DNA from: Candidatus Kaiserbacteria bacterium
GTDB lineage: Bacteria; Patescibacteriota; Minisyncoccia; Phycocordibacterales; Phycocordibacteraceae
Assembly (NCBI GenBank): GCA_026396675.1
Contig: JAPLWI010000010.1
Coordinates: 1 to 43,464 of the forward strand
Direction of reading: 5' to 3'
Length of the DNA: 43,464 bases
A model generated the notes under the pieces. It had not been told where the DNA came from. It ran no database searches and saw nothing but the letters and a program-made list of their open reading frames with translations. This document shows positions 4,193 through 43,192 of this stretch, one piece after another (the stretch's first letter is position 1; each line of letters begins with the position of its first letter). The position numbers and the translations under genes were made by a program.

Positions 4193-5518
4193 CTATTTAG
4201 AATAATATTCGCGAACAAAATCCTCGCGATATTCGTCAAAATTCCCGTCAAGAATTGCCTCTCGCGCACCGGCGACGAGATCCAAGATAAATTTCAGATT
4301 GTGCATTGAAGCAATAGTCGCGCCGAGCATCTCACCACTTCGTAAAAGATGCGACATATATGCGCGAGTAAATCCAGATGTGATGGACTTCGTAAATCCA
4401 TCATCAGAGGATGGATTTACGAAGTCCCGACATTCCGAGAGCGGCGTGAAATCGGAGTGATATTTTTCATTTTTTAAATGAATCAAACCGTGCTTTGTGT
4501 AAATAGAACCGTGCCGCCCGAGGCGCGTTGCCGCGACGCAGTCAAAAAGATCCATACCATTCGCAATGCCTTCGAGAATATCTCCTGGCTCGCCGATGCC
4601 GAGAAAGTGCCGCGGCAATTCTTCGGGTAATTCGGCAACTGCTGCTGCAAGTGCGCCGCGCATATCTTCTTTTGAAAATGACCCGCCGATACCGATGCCG
4701 TCGAATCCTAAACGCGAAATCTCGCGTGCTGATTCCCTTCGTAAATCCTCGTGACGACCGCCTTGAACGATGCCAAAAAGTGCCTGTTTTTTATTCGCAT
4801 TAATATTCTGTCGATGCGTCTTCAGAGACCGTTCTGCCCAGCGATGTGTGCGCTCCATTGCTTCGCGTTGATATTCATATGGCTCGGTTGGCGAAGTACA
4901 TTCGTCAAACGCAAAAAATATATCTGCACCGAGTGCATGTTGTATTTCTACCGAGCGTTCCGGCGTGAAGCGGTGTAGTGACCCGTCAAGGTGTGAAGTG
5001 AAAGAAACGCCTTCATCATCAATGATTGCAAGTTGGCCATGTTGACTTGCTACTTCTTCATCAAAAACAGCGAGCCCATGTTTGGACTTCGTAAGTCCAT
5101 CATCAGATGATGGACTTACGAAGTCCTTCACATCATCGCGTGTAAATTTGGAAATGGTTTTGTTAAACGCAGCACCGAGAGAGAATACTTGGAAGCCGCC
5201 GGAGTCGGTCATTGTCGGCCCCCACTCCGCAGAAGCTCCGCGGGGCGAGCCCTTCCAATTCATAAATTTCGCCAAGCCGCCCGCGTTTTTTACAATCTCT
5301 TCGCCCGGCTGAAGATATAGATGATAAGTGTTCGCGAGCACAACTTCAGCGCCGAGCGCCACGAGTTGTTCTGGGAGAATTCCCTTTACGCTTGCTTTGG
5401 TGCCAACAGGAGCGAATGCGGGTGTGTGAATGGCGCCGTGAGGGGTTTCAATGACGCCAGCGCGCGCCCGGCAACCGGGCGCGCGTTGTTCTATTTTAAA
5501 ATTAATCGCTCCCATCAC
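4193..5518 (-). CDS. tgt: queuine tRNA-ribosyltransferase (Tgt) with several palindrome-encoded inserts
   Basis: ETPHGAIHTPAFAPVG, TDSGGFQVFSLG, FGIVQGG, MDLFDCVAATRLGRHG, SMHNL; extra segments RAPGC, SPRGASAEWG, DFVSPSSDDGLTKS and DFVNPSSDDGFTKS coincide with inverted repeats. Confidence 0.93.
   Translation of the reverse strand: MMGAINFKIEQRAPGCRARAGVIETPHGAIHTPAFAPVGTKASVKGILPEQLVALGAEVVLANTYHLYLQPGEEIVKNAGGLAKFMNWKGSPRGASAEWGPTMTDSGGFQVFSLGAAFNKTISKFTRDDVKDFVSPSSDDGLTKSKHGLAVFDEEVASQHGQLAIIDDEGVSFTSHLDGSLHRFTPERSVEIQHALGADIFFAFDECTSPTEPYEYQREAMERTHRWAERSLKTHRQNINANKKQALFGIVQGGRHEDLRRESAREISRLGFDGIGIGGSFSKEDMRGALAAAVAELPEELPRHFLGIGEPGDILEGIANGMDLFDCVAATRLGRHGSIYTKHGLIHLKNEKYHSDFTPLSECRDFVNPSSDDGFTKSITSGFTRAYMSHLLRSGEMLGATIASMHNLKFILDLVAGAREAILDGNFDEYREDFVREYYSK
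4385..4427. repeat. REP-like palindromic element, CGTAA superfamily, inside tgt
   Basis: GGACTTCGTAAATCCATC (4385-4402) and GATGGATTTACGAAGTCC (4410-4427): perfect 18-bp inverted repeat. Confidence 0.95.
5084..5126. repeat. REP-like palindromic element, CGTAA superfamily, inside tgt
   Basis: GGACTTCGTAAGTCCATCATC (5084-5104), A, GATGATGGACTTACGAAGTCC (5106-5126): perfect 21-bp inverted repeat. Confidence 0.97.
5461..5485. repeat. GC-rich hairpin in the 5' part of tgt
   Basis: CGCGCGCCCGG-CAA-CCGGGCGCGCG perfect 11-bp stem. Confidence 0.9.
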
Positions 5519-13712: not shown

Positions 13713-16505
13713 TTACTGCGAGAGATAGCGCTCGCGAATCATATTTTCAACAGTAGCACGATCACGACCGTAGGTGAGCGAAGAAAGGTGAATAAGATCG
13801 TCCACCTGCGCCGGATTTGCCGCAGGCAAATCCGGCGTCTTCATATCAAACGCCTTTTGCGGCACACCGGATACGAGGATTTTCACATACGCATTGCGAT
13901 TTTCTATATTAACGAAGTCACTGGCTTCAAAAACCGGTGCGAATTGTTTTGCAAAAAATTCGGCATCTTCTTCGCCGACGCGGAAAATCGCCATATTGCC
14001 GACATTCCCGAAGACGGCATCGCGTGTTTTATCCTGAATTTGCGCGAGGAACTGGTGCGCCATTGAAAGTGCCAATTTATATTTCCGCGCTTCCGAAAGA
14101 ATCCCCGGAATTGAATCGGTTGTCACATTCTGAAATTCGTCGATGTAGAGATAGAACGGCGGATACGACGTCGTGCCCGCCAGCTGGCGGGTGTCAGCGC
14201 GCGACAAGGCCGCCATAAACAACTTCCCGACGACGATAAGCCCAAGTAGGTTCGCGTTTCTTTCACCGAGACGACCTTTGGAGAGATTGATGAGCAAAAT
14301 CTTTTTCGTATCCATCACCTCGCGGAATTTGAATGATGATTCCTGTTGACCGACGATCGGTCGGATGAAATCGTTCGCAGTGAAGTCATCAAATTTGTTG
14401 GTGATGTATGGAACGATATTTTCAAGTGCGGCATCGCCGCCTGCCTTCGTCGCAATTTCATTCCAGAATTGGCTTACAATCGGATTCATGCATTTCTCCA
14501 ATTTCTCGCGGCGGAAATCGCTATTCGCGAGCACGCGTGCGATATCGAGCATTGTCGAACCGCTTGAAGGATCTTCCATCACGAGCAACGTGGCGTTGCG
14601 GAAATATTGTTCGAACGCAGGACCCATACTCTCCGGCACATCGCCATACAAGCGATGAAAGATTGCAAGCAATTCGTTCACGATGAATGTTTTCTGCTCC
14701 GGTCGCGAAAAATCGTACTCCAAGAAATTGAGGCCAAACGGACGCGAGAGGTCAGCCGGATCAAAATAAATGACATCTTTATACCGCTCGGGCGGCACAG
14801 CTGCGAGAATATCCAAAATGTCAGAACCGTGTGGATCAATAAAACAGCATCCTTCGCCGTTTTTAATATCCTGCATAATCATTGATTTCATCAGGCCGGT
14901 TTTACCGGTTCCTGTCTGACCGATGATGTAGAGGTGACGCAGACGATCTTCCGGATCGAGATACACGAGTGTTTCTTGCCCGCGATAATTATTGATGCCG
15001 AGTAACGCGCCTCCGCCAGCTGGCGGATTGCGGAGTTCCAGAGGCGCGGGTGCATGCGTGAAGCGCGCTTGTTTTAGGTGCGGAGAAGATTCAATCCCAG
15101 ACGGTGGAAAATGGTAGAGAGTGGTCAATTCACGAAGCGACAAAGGAAGTGCCGATCTGTCAGGCATACGGAAGGAGAAATCTTCGCACACGAGTGCTGT
15201 CTGCTTGTTATTTGATGTGCGTTCAAATTTCAATTTATTTCCCTGCGTATTCGAGAATTGGTTGAATGCTGATTCTATCTCGCCGAGAACTTGATCTGCC
15301 TTCCGTTCGTCACTGGACGAAACGACGAGTCGGATAGTCGTGCCAACAATTGGCGTCGCGATTTTTTTCTCAACCTGTTCGATATACGCTTTGTTCTCTT
15401 CAACCTGCCGTGTTTCGGCTTCTTTCGCCTTTTGTTCATCTTTCGGTTTGTTTGAAAAAAGTGTGCGGCTGATGTCTCGTGCGAAGTCGCCGAGTGCTGT
15501 TTCTGGAGTGCTGAATGCCGATTGACGCTTTTCACCTTTCCGTAATGCTTGGAGAATTTTTTGGTAATGTTTCGTATACCGTTCATCACGCGGTTCAATA
15601 ATAATCTGCAACGCCGCTCCTTCTCCAGTTTGTTCTATTTTAGCGAAGGCATTTGTAATTGTGTTAATCGGGTCATAATCGAAGTCAGTGTAATCCTTGA
15701 GCGGCAATGAAGGATGTTCAACGAATTTCGCAACTGATACGAGTACAGAACCGGTTGAAGCAAAAATATTGTAATCGGACGGTTGTAACACTAATTCGGC
15801 ATTCGGAAAAATAGCGAGAAGTTGCTTTTCAAAAAGAGAACACTTCCCTTTCGGTATCGCAGCGTAGAACTGAAGTTCTGAAGTATGTGCGGGGACGGCG
15901 AGCTCAAGCGCGAAATAGTTTGGATCGCTACTTGAGGCGTCAGCGACTGAGAGAAGCCCTGAATAAAATTGCTCCATCGCAGAAATAAGTTCCTTCAACG
16001 ACTTCGCGCGCACTTCGCCAGCTGGCGAACGGCTCTTTGGACCCGGAAGTGAGATTTCATACAACGCCATGTGAAGCGCTTGAAACTGTGGTGCTTTCTC
16101 ATCCGCCTCAAGTGCCGGTAATCCGGCTGCAACATACCTTACGAGAAAGCGATGGAAATCGTCAGTAATATGCGGATCGTGCAATTTCTCAAGCACTGAA
16201 AGTGTGTTTTTTATCCCTTTTTCTTCCATTGTTTGTTGGAGGCCTTTAATTGTTTGTTCGCTATCACCGAGATTTAATTCAGCGAGAATCTTCTCGGCAA
16301 TATCATTTATCGCTGGTTCGCTAGCGCGATATTCAGGCGCAAGTATTTCTGGAGAAACAGCGTGGTGTTCATGAATTTGCTCTGAAATAATTTTTACGCG
16401 TTCAAGAGTTCCGGTTTTCGCGATTTCTTTTTCTTTATTCACAACCTGCTCGCGCAAATACGCGAGTTCTTCTTCAGGCGTGGACAACTTAGGTGTGGAT
16501 TCCAT
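13713..16505 (-). CDS. VirD4/TraG-like type IV secretion/conjugation ATPase
   Basis: HLYIIGQTGTGKTGLMKSM (Walker A), CFIDPHGSD, YLYIDEFQNVTTDSI (Walker B), SMAHQFLAQI. Confidence 0.88.
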   Translation of the reverse strand: MESTPKLSTPEEELAYLREQVVNKEKEIAKTGTLERVKIISEQIHEHHAVSPEILAPEYRASEPAINDIAEKILAELNLGDSEQTIKGLQQTMEEKGIKNTLSVLEKLHDPHITDDFHRFLVRYVAAGLPALEADEKAPQFQALHMALYEISLPGPKSRSPAGEVRAKSLKELISAMEQFYSGLLSVADASSSDPNYFALELAVPAHTSELQFYAAIPKGKCSLFEKQLLAIFPNAELVLQPSDYNIFASTGSVLVSVAKFVEHPSLPLKDYTDFDYDPINTITNAFAKIEQTGEGAALQIIIEPRDERYTKHYQKILQALRKGEKRQSAFSTPETALGDFARDISRTLFSNKPKDEQKAKEAETRQVEENKAYIEQVEKKIATPIVGTTIRLVVSSSDERKADQVLGEIESAFNQFSNTQGNKLKFERTSNNKQTALVCEDFSFRMPDRSALPLSLRELTTLYHFPPSGIESSPHLKQARFTHAPAPLELRNPPAGGGALLGINNYRGQETLVYLDPEDRLRHLYIIGQTGTGKTGLMKSMIMQDIKNGEGCCFIDPHGSDILDILAAVPPERYKDVIYFDPADLSRPFGLNFLEYDFSRPEQKTFIVNELLAIFHRLYGDVPESMGPAFEQYFRNATLLVMEDPSSGSTMLDIARVLANSDFRREKLEKCMNPIVSQFWNEIATKAGGDAALENIVPYITNKFDDFTANDFIRPIVGQQESSFKFREVMDTKKILLINLSKGRLGERNANLLGLIVVGKLFMAALSRADTRQLAGTTSYPPFYLYIDEFQNVTTDSIPGILSEARKYKLALSMAHQFLAQIQDKTRDAVFGNVGNMAIFRVGEEDAEFFAKQFAPVFEASDFVNIENRNAYVKILVSGVPQKAFDMKTPDLPAANPAQVDDLIHLSSLTYGRDRATVENMIRERYLSQ
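13809..13837. repeat. 13-bp perfect hairpin in the VirD4-like gene
   Basis: CGCCGGATTTGCC-GCA-GGCAAATCCGGCG. Confidence 0.92.
14176..14191. repeat. CGCCAGCTGGCG palindrome, copy 1
   Basis: CCCGCCAGCTGGCGGG perfect 16-bp palindrome. Confidence 0.92.
15012..15027. repeat. CGCCAGCTGGCG palindrome, copy 2
   Basis: TCCGCCAGCTGGCGGA perfect 16-bp palindrome. Confidence 0.92.
16014..16029. repeat. CGCCAGCTGGCG palindrome, copy 3
   Basis: TTCGCCAGCTGGCGAA perfect 16-bp palindrome. Confidence 0.92.
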
Positions 16506-17229: not shown

Positions 17230-17970
17230 TTATACCATCTGCACAATCGCGTAGATCACGAATGCACCGAGAAGCGTCATGATTGTTGTAAGCGCACGAG
17301 GATGTCGGTGGTGACTCTCGGGAATAAGATCGCTTGCCGATAGATAGAGAAATGTACCGACAAAAATGGCGAGCACGAGTCCTATGAATGATTCAGGAAT
17401 GCGAAAGAACAATGTTGAGACAACACCGAGAACTGGAGCTACCGCATCTACAAATAACCACCTGAACGCCTGCCAGCGGCTTCCTTCATTTCGCAGAATA
17501 AAGCTCACGGTATTGATGCCGTCGGAAAAATCGTGCGTCAACACCGCGGTTGTAACGACAATGCCGACAATCGTCGATGCTTGGAAACTGACTCCAATCG
17601 CGATGCCATCAAGAAAGCTATGTGTGGAAAGTGTAAGCGCTCCGAACGCTCCGCGAGATCCACGAGGTGACACCTTACGATTTTCGTAAGGTGTCACCTC
17701 GTGGTCAGTGTGCGTATGTAGAAGAATAAGCCGGTCTAAAATAAGATAGCCGAAAAATCCGAGGGCGATAAATAACGTAACTATTGAAGCATCGTGCCAG
17801 CCATTTCCAAGCTTGATTGCCTCAGGAAGAAGGTCAAAGAGTGCGACGCCGGCGACTGCACCAGCAGAAAATCCTAAAATGAGATGTAACCGATCACGGA
17901 ATCGTAGCGCGAATAAGCCGCCGACTAGAGTCGCGACGAATGCGGCGCAACTAATTAAGACAACGGTCAT
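17230..17970 (-). CDS. ZIP family metal transporter
   Basis: GFSAGAVAGVALFDLLPEA, THSFLDGIAIGVSF, LTHDFSDGINTVSFIL. Confidence 0.93.
   Translation of the reverse strand: MTVVLISCAAFVATLVGGLFALRFRDRLHLILGFSAGAVAGVALFDLLPEAIKLGNGWHDASIVTLFIALGFFGYLILDRLILLHTHTDHEVTPYENRKVSPRGSRGAFGALTLSTHSFLDGIAIGVSFQASTIVGIVVTTAVLTHDFSDGINTVSFILRNEGSRWQAFRWLFVDAVAPVLGVVSTLFFRIPESFIGLVLAIFVGTFLYLSASDLIPESHHRHPRALTTIMTLLGAFVIYAIVQMV
17660..17704. repeat. palindromic element, CGTAAGGTGTCACC subfamily, inside the ZIP gene
   Basis: CCACGAGGTGACACCTTACGA-TTT-TCGTAAGGTGTCACCTCGTGG perfect 21-bp inverted repeat. Confidence 0.96.
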
Positions 17971-24172: not shown

Positions 24173-25345
24173 TCAATCCACCATGGTTCCGATAGTACTG
24201 TCTTGGCTGACGAACGCAACTGCTCGCGCAAGCGCCTTTCGGAAGCGAACAAACGCACGCGGGCGAATGTCCGGACCCCAAGAAATGCGCAACGTCGCAC
24301 GAGCGCGCGTTGTGTCTCCAGTCAGAGCAAATACCGCACGCGAGCCATTTTCAGAATCGGTCTCGCACGCACTTCGTGTAGAGACCGCGAACTCTTCTTC
24401 ATCAAGAAGCGCAACGATATAGTCAGTGTCTCGGTTCGGTAAGGAAATGTTGAGAATGTTAGAGGATTGGACACGGCCTTCATTTATATATACGGTCGGA
24501 AGTGTATTTTTGATGAACTCAATAAGTTTGATTCGTTCTATCTTCGCACTCGCACAAAATTTCTCCCGGCCGACAACTGCGGCAGAAAGATCAGCTGCAA
24601 AGTTTCGTGCGAGTTCAAACGGTTCGCTACCAGGACGTAATCCCCTTTCTTGTCCGCCGCCGCGGTACAACGGCTCTAGCGGAATGGTTCTATGCGCGAT
24701 GAGTGCGCCGATGCCGCGCGTTGTTCCTACTTTTGAAGAATCAAATGTCAGCATATCCGCGTCAAAATGCGCGCGAGAGATTTTTTCTGTGAGCGGCGCC
24801 TGACTCGCGTCGACGTGCAGAAGAATCCCTCGCTTCGCTCGGGATGGCTCGCGTATGACGCTCGCCACTTCTCTCGTGTTCCATACAGTACCCGTTTCGC
24901 CACATACAGCGTCCATCGAAATAAGAACTGTTTCTTTTCGTATCATTTTTTTCAGTGCTTCAATATTGACGCGATAATTGGCAATTGGCAGTTCTTCTAT
25001 TTCTACTCCTTCTCGCGAAAGTAATTTTATATTTTCAACTACAGATGCGTGTGCACTCGGCAGATACAGGACATGTAACGTGGACTTACGAAGTCCTGAC
25101 ATTCCGAATCCTGATATTAGGGACTTCGTAAGTCCTCGAACCGACCCGAGTATTGCGAGGGCATTTGCTTCGGTCGCACCGCTTGTGAAGATAACGTCAT
25201 CTGGCTGTACTTCAATCAGTCGCGCGATATCTGCACGCGCCCTCTCAAGCTGCTCTCGAGATCTTCGACCTTCCTCGTGCGGTGACGATGTATTTGCACT
25301 CGCACCCGCTGCACGATCGAGATTTATTGGCGTTGTTTTAAACAT
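24173..25345 (-). CDS. cysteine desulfurase family protein (NifS/IscS-like)
   Basis: DDVIFTSGATEANALAI, LLHVDASQAP, DMLTFDSSKVGTTRGIGALI, GGGQERGLRPGSEP, STRSACET. Confidence 0.9.
   Translation of the reverse strand: MFKTTPINLDRAAGASANTSSPHEEGRRSREQLERARADIARLIEVQPDDVIFTSGATEANALAILGSVRGLTKSLISGFGMSGLRKSTLHVLYLPSAHASVVENIKLLSREGVEIEELPIANYRVNIEALKKMIRKETVLISMDAVCGETGTVWNTREVASVIREPSRAKRGILLHVDASQAPLTEKISRAHFDADMLTFDSSKVGTTRGIGALIAHRTIPLEPLYRGGGQERGLRPGSEPFELARNFAADLSAAVVGREKFCASAKIERIKLIEFIKNTLPTVYINEGRVQSSNILNISLPNRDTDYIVALLDEEEFAVSTRSACETDSENGSRAVFALTGDTTRARATLRISWGPDIRPRAFVRFRKALARAVAFVSQDSTIGTMVD
24825..24845. repeat. hairpin inside the cysteine desulfurase gene
   Basis: ATCCC-TCGCTTCGCTC-GGGAT; encodes the extra EPSRAKRGI before LLHVDASQ. 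Confidence 0.75.
25082..25135. repeat. pair of inverted REP units inside the cysteine desulfurase gene
   Basis: GGACTTACGAAGTCC (25082-25096) and GGACTTCGTAAGTCC (25121-25135), 24-nt spacer. Confidence 0.93.
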
Positions 25346-26834: not shown

Positions 26835-26869
26835 CGAAATTCGCAAGGTGTCACCTTACGGAGATTTCG
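26835..26869. repeat. palindromic element, CGTAAGGTG subfamily, overlapping a stop codon
   Basis: CGAAAT-TCGCAAGGTG-T-CACCTTACGGAG-ATTTCG. Confidence 0.85.
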
Positions 26870-33671: not shown

Positions 33672-33770
33672 ATTGCCTCCTTACTTTTTCTTTTTCTTTT
33701 TTTATATTTTACAGATCTAATCTGAAATTAAGATTAACATATCATCTAGCCAGAGTCAATTTGAAGTTAA

Positions 33771-33787
33771 GCGAAGTCAGACTTCGC
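33771..33787. repeat. short hairpin upstream of RAYT
   Basis: GCGAAGTC-A-GACTTCGC. Confidence 0.7.
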
Positions 33788-33857
33788 TACTGTTGTGCAA
33801 AAAACTAGATTTTAAGCCATATTTTCATAATCAAAGCTCTATATCTTGTAAAAAAGT

Positions 33858-33880
33858 TGAAAGATTTCGTAAACCTTTCA
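33858..33880. repeat. REP unit at the RAYT 5' side
   Basis: TGAAAG-A-TTT-CGT-AAA-C-CTTTCA. Confidence 0.85.
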
Positions 33881-33886
33881 TGTATT

Positions 33887-34579
33887 ATGGAAGGCATGGA
33901 ATTATGGCATGTATTAAATCACGGGGTTGAAGGACGAGACTTATTTCTTGACACACAAGATTACGCGCGTTTTGTGCATAATCTCTACGAATTTAATGAC
34001 TCTGCTCCTGCCGATAATCTTTGGCGCCTCTTTGATCCGTCTGGAATGAAAGATTTCGTAAACCCTTCATTTAGAAAAGCGAGACGGCTGCTAGTGGACA
34101 TTCACGGTTGGGTACTAATGAAGAATCATTATCACCTGCTCCTTTCAGAACGCGCGGAGAACGGAATCAGTTTATTTCTTCGCAAATTGAATGTTGGCTA
34201 TTCGAATTATTTTAATGCACGCTACAAGCGTCGCGGAACTTTATTCCAAGGTCGCACAAAAAAGATTTTGATAGAAAATGAATCGCATTTCTTATACATT
34301 CTTCATTATTTGCATCTTAATCCTCTCGATTATCTTGAGGGTGCCAAGGAATGGCGTCTACGAAACAAGAGTGGAATCAAGAACATGAATGATGCACTGG
34401 AGTATCTCGACTCATATCGCTGGAGCAGCTATCTGGACTATATTGGGAAAAAGAATTTTCCGTCTGTTATTACGACTGCATTTTTTAATAGTTCACTTGG
34501 CGACTACCGCACCTCGCTTAGCGAATATCTTCGCGATGCCGAATACGATAACGACTTCACCAAGCTGATGTTTGAATGA
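33887..34579 (+). CDS. REP-associated tyrosine transposase (RAYT, Y1_Tnp/IS200-like)
   Basis: ELWHVLNHGVEGRDLFLDTQDYARFVHNL, WVLMKNHYHLLL (HUH), NVGYSNYFNARYKRRGTLFQGR, YILHYLHLNPL; ORF track extends to a TTG at 33857 inside the REP. Confidence 0.93.
   Translation: MEGMELWHVLNHGVEGRDLFLDTQDYARFVHNLYEFNDSAPADNLWRLFDPSGMKDFVNPSFRKARRLLVDIHGWVLMKNHYHLLLSERAENGISLFLRKLNVGYSNYFNARYKRRGTLFQGRTKKILIENESHFLYILHYLHLNPLDYLEGAKEWRLRNKSGIKNMNDALEYLDSYRWSSYLDYIGKKNFPSVITTAFFNSSLGDYRTSLSEYLRDAEYDNDFTKLMFE
34046..34070. repeat. REP unit inside the RAYT ORF
   Basis: ATGAAAGATTTCGTAAACCCTTCAT imperfect palindrome; encodes MKDFVNPS. Confidence 0.85.
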
Positions 34580-34610
34580 AAGGTTTTGAAAGGTTTACGA
34601 AACCTTTCAT
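34576..34610. repeat. REP unit at the RAYT 3' side
   Basis: ATGAAAGGTT then TGAAAGGTTT-ACG-AAACCTTTCA perfect 10-bp arms (34587-34609). Confidence 0.92.
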
Positions 34611-43115: not shown

Positions 43116-43192
43116 CCGTAAGGTGTTTCCTTACGGCTCTGCGTAAGGTGACACCTTACGGATTTCCCCTCGCCGCGAGGTGTCACCTTACG
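43116..43192. repeat. cluster of three palindromic units, CGTAAGGTGTCACC subfamily
   Basis: CCGTAAGG-tgttt-CCTTACGG; CGTAAGGTG-A-CACCTTACG; CGAGGTGTCACCTTACG. Confidence 0.9.

Follow-up and report, generated by a model that had tools for sequence, protein, structure and literature searches.

REP-associated tyrosine transposases (RAYTs) are domesticated transposases of the IS200/IS605-like HuH-Y1 type, and their benefit to the host is debated. In the gammaproteobacterial REPtrons of E. coli (TnpAREP), Pseudomonas and Stenotrophomonas, a single-copy Y1 gene is bordered by inverted palindromes, RAYT and REP co-evolve, and some RAYTs have cognate repeats elsewhere in the genome (PMC2817692, PMC8266576). 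REP copies inside the gene itself have been published for TnpAREP subclass 2.4 (RAYT group 4) of Cyanobacteria and Bacteroidetes, where they lie in the stretch that separates the HuH motif from the Tyr motif (Quentin et al. 2018, PMC6006769). In-frame palindromic repeats in housekeeping genes are known as intragenic GTAG/CGTC REPs and as Rickettsia palindromic elements (PMC3733652). Our literature search, in which few subscription journals were covered, found no paper on RAYT/REP in Patescibacteria.

Here, we analyzed a window of 43,464 nucleotides from the genome of a Candidatus Kaiserbacteria bacterium (640 kb, scored 100% complete) that contains a gene for a RAYT/TnpAREP-like HuH-Y1 transposase of 227 aa at 33896..34579 on the forward strand, delimited through PF01797, NF047646, a fold match and a homology-based start. 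The protein reaches 23.7 bits (hmmscan) or 24.6 bits (genome search) against PF01797, for which the cut-off is 23, and 37.9 bits against the NCBIfam RAYT model NF047646 (REP-associated tyrosine transposase), which is under the cut-off of 80; the gene is therefore filed as RAYT-like, within the wider family and outside the curated one. Its AlphaFold model (mean pLDDT 86) has as its best PDB match 4er8, TnpAREP bound to a REP hairpin (E 1.5e-6), which agrees with the RAYT-like assignment made for this Y1 transposase in the preliminary description. The HuH-Y1 fold and the hairpin ends are shared with IS200/IS605 elements, but the IS608 and ISDra2 chains rank below 4er8 in the fold search, no identical multicopy elements were seen, and here the gene holds a copy of its own palindrome. 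H78, H80 and Y138 are invariant in an alignment of 65 homologues, with H78/H80 forming the HuH motif and Y138 presumably being the catalytic Tyr. The reading frame is open already from a TTG at 33857, within the upstream palindrome, but homologues set the start at the ATG at 33896 (MELWHV; MEL in homologues), so that this palindrome probably lies just outside the gene. A relative with 60% identity was found by sequence search in a Patescibacteria group bacterium (L125).

The REP-like palindromes that had been described on both sides of this gene and once within it are confirmed as units of 23 nt. The upstream unit, TGAAAGATTTCGTAAACCTTTCA (33858..33880, forward strand), is an imperfect palindrome with a CGT loop and is centred about 25 nt 5' of the start codon, while the downstream unit, TGAAAGGTTTCGTAAACCTTTCA (34587..34609, reverse strand), is inverted and has a perfect stem, so that the gene is flanked by its own palindromes in opposite orientation (33858 + / 34587 −). 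The internal unit, TGAAAGATTTCGTAAACCCTTCA (34047..34069, forward strand), is identical to the upstream one at 21 of 23 core positions and is read in frame as (M)KDFVNPS, within the segment MKDFVNPSF, in the loop joining helix A to beta 2, which falls in a low-confidence part of the model (residues 41-60, pLDDT about 54). An extra half unit seen in the sequence, TGAAAGGTTT (34577..34586, forward strand), contains the TGA stop codon and adjoins the downstream unit. All three units lack a GTAG/GTGG foot on sequence inspection and read TGAAAG..CTTTCA. Folded as single-stranded DNA, the downstream unit gives a hairpin of -8.6 kcal/mol (z -5.3), the upstream unit also folds (z -2.4), and the internal unit gives a weak hairpin (z -0.5). 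Compared with the gammaproteobacterial REPtrons, the single-copy Y1 gene and the inverted palindromes are alike, whereas here dispersed copies are few (none for the window unit), the GTAG foot is absent and an extra copy lies in the gene.

The 9-mer core TTTCGTAAA, found at 33865 (+) and, inside the ORF, at 34054 (+), with its inverse at 34594-34602, is by itself near chance and thus weak evidence: the window holds four copies against 0.9 expected, a number reached by 1 of 100 shuffles. The 23-nt units are far more distinctive. In a pattern search allowing up to three mismatches, the three at the locus were the sole copies of their family in the 640-kb genome, the only further match being the reverse reading of the downstream unit and the reversed-pattern control giving 0 (whole-genome counts are based on pattern searches and fetched stretches). 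That the likeness of the three sites is a chance product of AT-rich palindromes, as the near-chance 9-mer taken alone might suggest, has a negligible probability and is refuted by these locus-specific units and by the clade-wide tests given below. Present-day activity of the locus is not evident from its sequence, because the internal hairpin is weak and the window unit is without dispersed copies.

The locus is probably a REPtron of a RAYT (we put the probability at about 0.78), in which the gene lies between cognate REP-like palindromes and an extra in-frame copy has been rewritten in step with the flanks. A RAYT match was obtained in 53 of 93 genomes of the genus, and in all 28 distinct RAYTs of the clade to which the window gene belongs, the stretch from FND (helix A) to IHGW (beta 2) contains a palindrome matching the upstream and/or downstream unit of the same locus. 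The mean score of the internal unit was 22.4 against its own upstream unit and 10.05 against those of other loci, and 21.4 and 10.1, respectively, for the downstream unit, with 0 of 10000 permutations giving own-flank matches as good. The match follows the flanks through considerable change, as the palindromes of the clade differ in their stems and have CGT, CCG, CGG, ACG, GTT or ACT loops. Among 14 disjoint nearest pairs, own beat cross comparison in 13, with one tie and none against (sign p 0.0002), and in 19 of the 28 RAYTs the internal core resembles the upstream unit of its locus more than it does the corresponding unit inside the RAYT of its closest relative.

Alternatively, the segment would be a conserved peptide, DFVNPS, whose DNA resembles the flanks through codon usage, and an (M)xDFVNPSF segment is indeed common to the close paralogues. 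This alternative is very improbable and is refuted for the clade, in which unrelated peptides (SGRTTSRH, VGHVMSDI, VGSTRPYI, NLDLRNPD) occupy the same site, in two frames and both orientations, and still match their own flanks. The centre of the palindrome falls in codon phase 0, 1 and 2 in 14, 13 and 1 cases (in the phase-2 case, L055, the centre is poorly called), and the internal units include loops of either orientation, CGT or ACG; because of these two reading frames and both orientations, it is the DNA, not the peptide, that is kept. The comparison of the MKDFVNPSF segment among orthologs that had been proposed earlier thus shows it to be conserved as DNA matching its own flanks. Seven errors in the stem are common to internal and upstream copies (L005, L039, L054 and others) against about 1.7 expected, which suggests copying between the two units. 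A RAYT remnant in another genome (L101; G024 contig 3, about 13740-13946) ends exactly at the internal unit and retains the upstream unit, the N-terminal codons and the internal unit, as if everything from there to the downstream unit had been cut out. The inner copy is thus a putative partner site of the enzyme that has been retained or rewritten, and its resemblance to the flanks is not fortuitous.

By analogy with the literature on E. coli TnpAREP, the encoded enzyme would act on the palindromes as hairpins of single-stranded DNA. The internal copy would have arrived at a place where the protein can accommodate an in-frame insertion, a flexible loop at the surface that joins helix A to beta 2 and precedes the HuH motif, and a copying process would then rewrite it from the flanks as the specificity of the enzyme changes, either by a REP-for-REP strand exchange performed by the enzyme or by gene conversion between the copies. 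The inner copy may also pay for itself, for instance if binding of the enzyme to the RAYT gene or its mRNA keeps expression low. A gene that has retained its own recognition site in frame while that site changed many times would document how enzyme and site evolve together.

Internal copies are more general than the preliminary description supposed when it called a REP copy inside the gene of the enzyme unusual. An HMM-based scan of the phylum gave 141 RAYTs, and 64 of them hold in frame a copy of the unit at their own flank: 44 among the 73 of the genus, and 20 among 68 from across the phylum, against 0.7% in mismatched controls. Such copies had already been published for subclass 2.4 (PMC6006769). 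Upstream-downstream pairs are present at 66 of the 73 RAYTs of the genus. The 64 internal copies lie at model positions 35-54 in 53 cases, 135-164 in 10 and 180-184 in one, and a tree of 65 RAYTs built without the loop columns requires six changes of the internal-unit label. Twelve RAYTs that form a sister clade have flanking units and no internal unit, and are a natural negative control. Copies reach 7.0 per kb in loop 1 and 0.075 per kb in neighbouring DNA, figures that count inherited copies, not independent insertions; in this copy-density count, no unit copies were found elsewhere in the RAYT ORFs outside the two loops. Local hopping was considered as the whole cause and judged insufficient: the 212 kb of neighbouring DNA yielded 16 copies, and loop 1 holds 43, inherited ones included.

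A further 54 related RAYT loci, mostly of Bacteroidota, have their internal copies at model 75-87, between HuH (69-71) and Tyr (129), and so reproduce the position published for subclass 2.4 (PMC6006769). To judge from these positions, REPs have apparently come to lie in genes in three loops of one fold by separate routes. In the comparison with subclass 2.4, a RAYT gene with flanking REPs and in-frame copies in a variable, peripheral loop is common to both, whereas its REPs are GT[AG]G-footed and the units here are without the GTAG foot, and the copies found here lie before HuH (35-54) or after Tyr (135-164), not between them (PMC6006769). The internal copy in the window is placed 21 aa before HuH and thus outside the position that defines the subclass. 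What is new here comprises the loops, the phylum, the co-variation as measured and the occurrence of REP pairs in frame within tgt and other housekeeping genes.

The in-gene site is a candidate for self-regulation of the RAYT, and it could be a selected cis-acting site: by binding this hairpin in the RAYT gene or its mRNA, the enzyme would hold down its expression or activity. In agreement with such autoregulation, none of the 28 clade members has lost the internal copy, although protein identity falls to about 50% among them, and it always tracks the flanks; in-gene units occur in at least three loops of the same fold, as if the gene mattered and not the place; and the centre of the upstream unit lies 17-42 nt before the start codon throughout. 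The distance of the internal unit from the start varies, however (about 160 nt in the clade and farther 3' for the other loops), which leaves no fixed regulatory position, the sister clade manages without an internal unit, and the shared stem errors suggest passive copying. We regard autoregulation as rather unlikely.

The recurrence of CGTAA in the window had led to the proposal that this RAYT mobilizes the whole set. About ten such sites do exist, but the motif is uninformative, since it occurs 83 times on both strands where roughly 85 are expected from base composition, and the proposal is not supported, because the RAYT's own unit is confined to its locus. Dispersed palindrome pairs at 4385-4427, 5084-5126 and 25082-25135 resemble more closely the unit of a contig-16 paralogue, which is 75% identical to the window RAYT over the alignment and has the same upstream, internal and downstream layout with the same 189-bp spacing of the first two units and a different stem, TGATGGATTTCGTAAACCCATCA. 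This stem differs at 2 of 23 positions from the unit of the dispersed pairs, TGATGGACTTCGTAAATCCATCA; cognate dispersed REPs are thus present for the contig-16 paralogue and absent for the window unit. Another family, CGTAAGGTG / CGTAAGGTGNCACCTTACG, far above chance at 17661-17703, 26842-26860 and 43117-43192, resembles a palindrome beside a RAYT on contig 29 (L003), and AGCGAAGTCAGACTTCGCT at 33770-33788, just 5' of the window RAYT, resembles one beside a RAYT on contig 18 (L002). The window contains several REP families, of which that of its own RAYT is restricted to its locus, and the idea of one mobilizer for all CGTAA sites was rejected because the palindrome families differ. The comparison with related genomes that had been suggested gave a divided answer: GGACTTCGTAARTCC is enriched with the RAYT clade of the window, occurring in at least three copies in 11 of 21 genomes with the clade against 6 of 70 without it (Fisher p=4e-5), but some genomes without the clade are also rich in it (G066 with 17 and G022 with 12).

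Several dispersed pairs lie in frame in housekeeping genes. In the window, tgt (queuine tRNA-ribosyltransferase, PF01702; 4193-5518, reverse strand) holds the pairs 4385-4427 and 5084-5126, which encode RDFVNPSSDDGFTKS and KDFVSPSSDDGLTKS, and a gene for an aminotransferase class V / cysteine-desulfurase-like protein (24173-25345, reverse strand) holds the pair 25082-25135; elsewhere in this genome, tatD, dus, gltX, tsaD and the gene for DNA polymerase III delta' are affected. The second tgt insert is missing from about half of 25 tgt homologues, and others have inserts of different REP families in the same loop. In-frame palindromes in housekeeping genes are also the hallmark of the intragenic REPs and Rickettsia palindromic elements (PMC3733652), the difference being that a cognate RAYT is present here: in genome G080, the tgt insert is the unit of that genome's own RAYT (L069), matching at 25/25 with a next best score of 13.5. 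Such pairs show that proteins of very small genomes, too, are being remodelled by this system.

These insertions bear on a reading by passive tolerance, in which REP units or pairs enter many genes, in-frame copies persist where they fall in surface loops, and the RAYT gene is one target among others. The in-frame pairs in tgt and other housekeeping genes, the tgt loop of congeners, which is free of these inserts or occupied by other REP families, and the low-confidence model loop that holds the internal segment of the RAYT all speak for it. We consider it a possible though doubtful explanation, as each of the 28 RAYTs in the clade has the internal copy and it changes along with the flanks, copies in neighbouring DNA are few, and a purely neutral relic would drift from its flanks. 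A wider proposal is that RAYT genes have been selected to hold their own hairpin in the coding sequence, independently in at least three loops, that the copy follows the flanks since recognition of its own gene is required of the enzyme as a means of self-limitation, and that the system also spreads coded peptides through the housekeeping proteins of minimal genomes; in this full form it seems unlikely. The genes with in-frame units are mostly tRNA-related, possibly merely since small genomes are rich in such genes. The units in tatD, dus, gltX, tsaD and the DNA polymerase III delta' gene were observed at L017, L023, L025, L121, L122 and L005 (1992-2999), and a further unit in this set of loci lies at the start of an mnmA-like gene.
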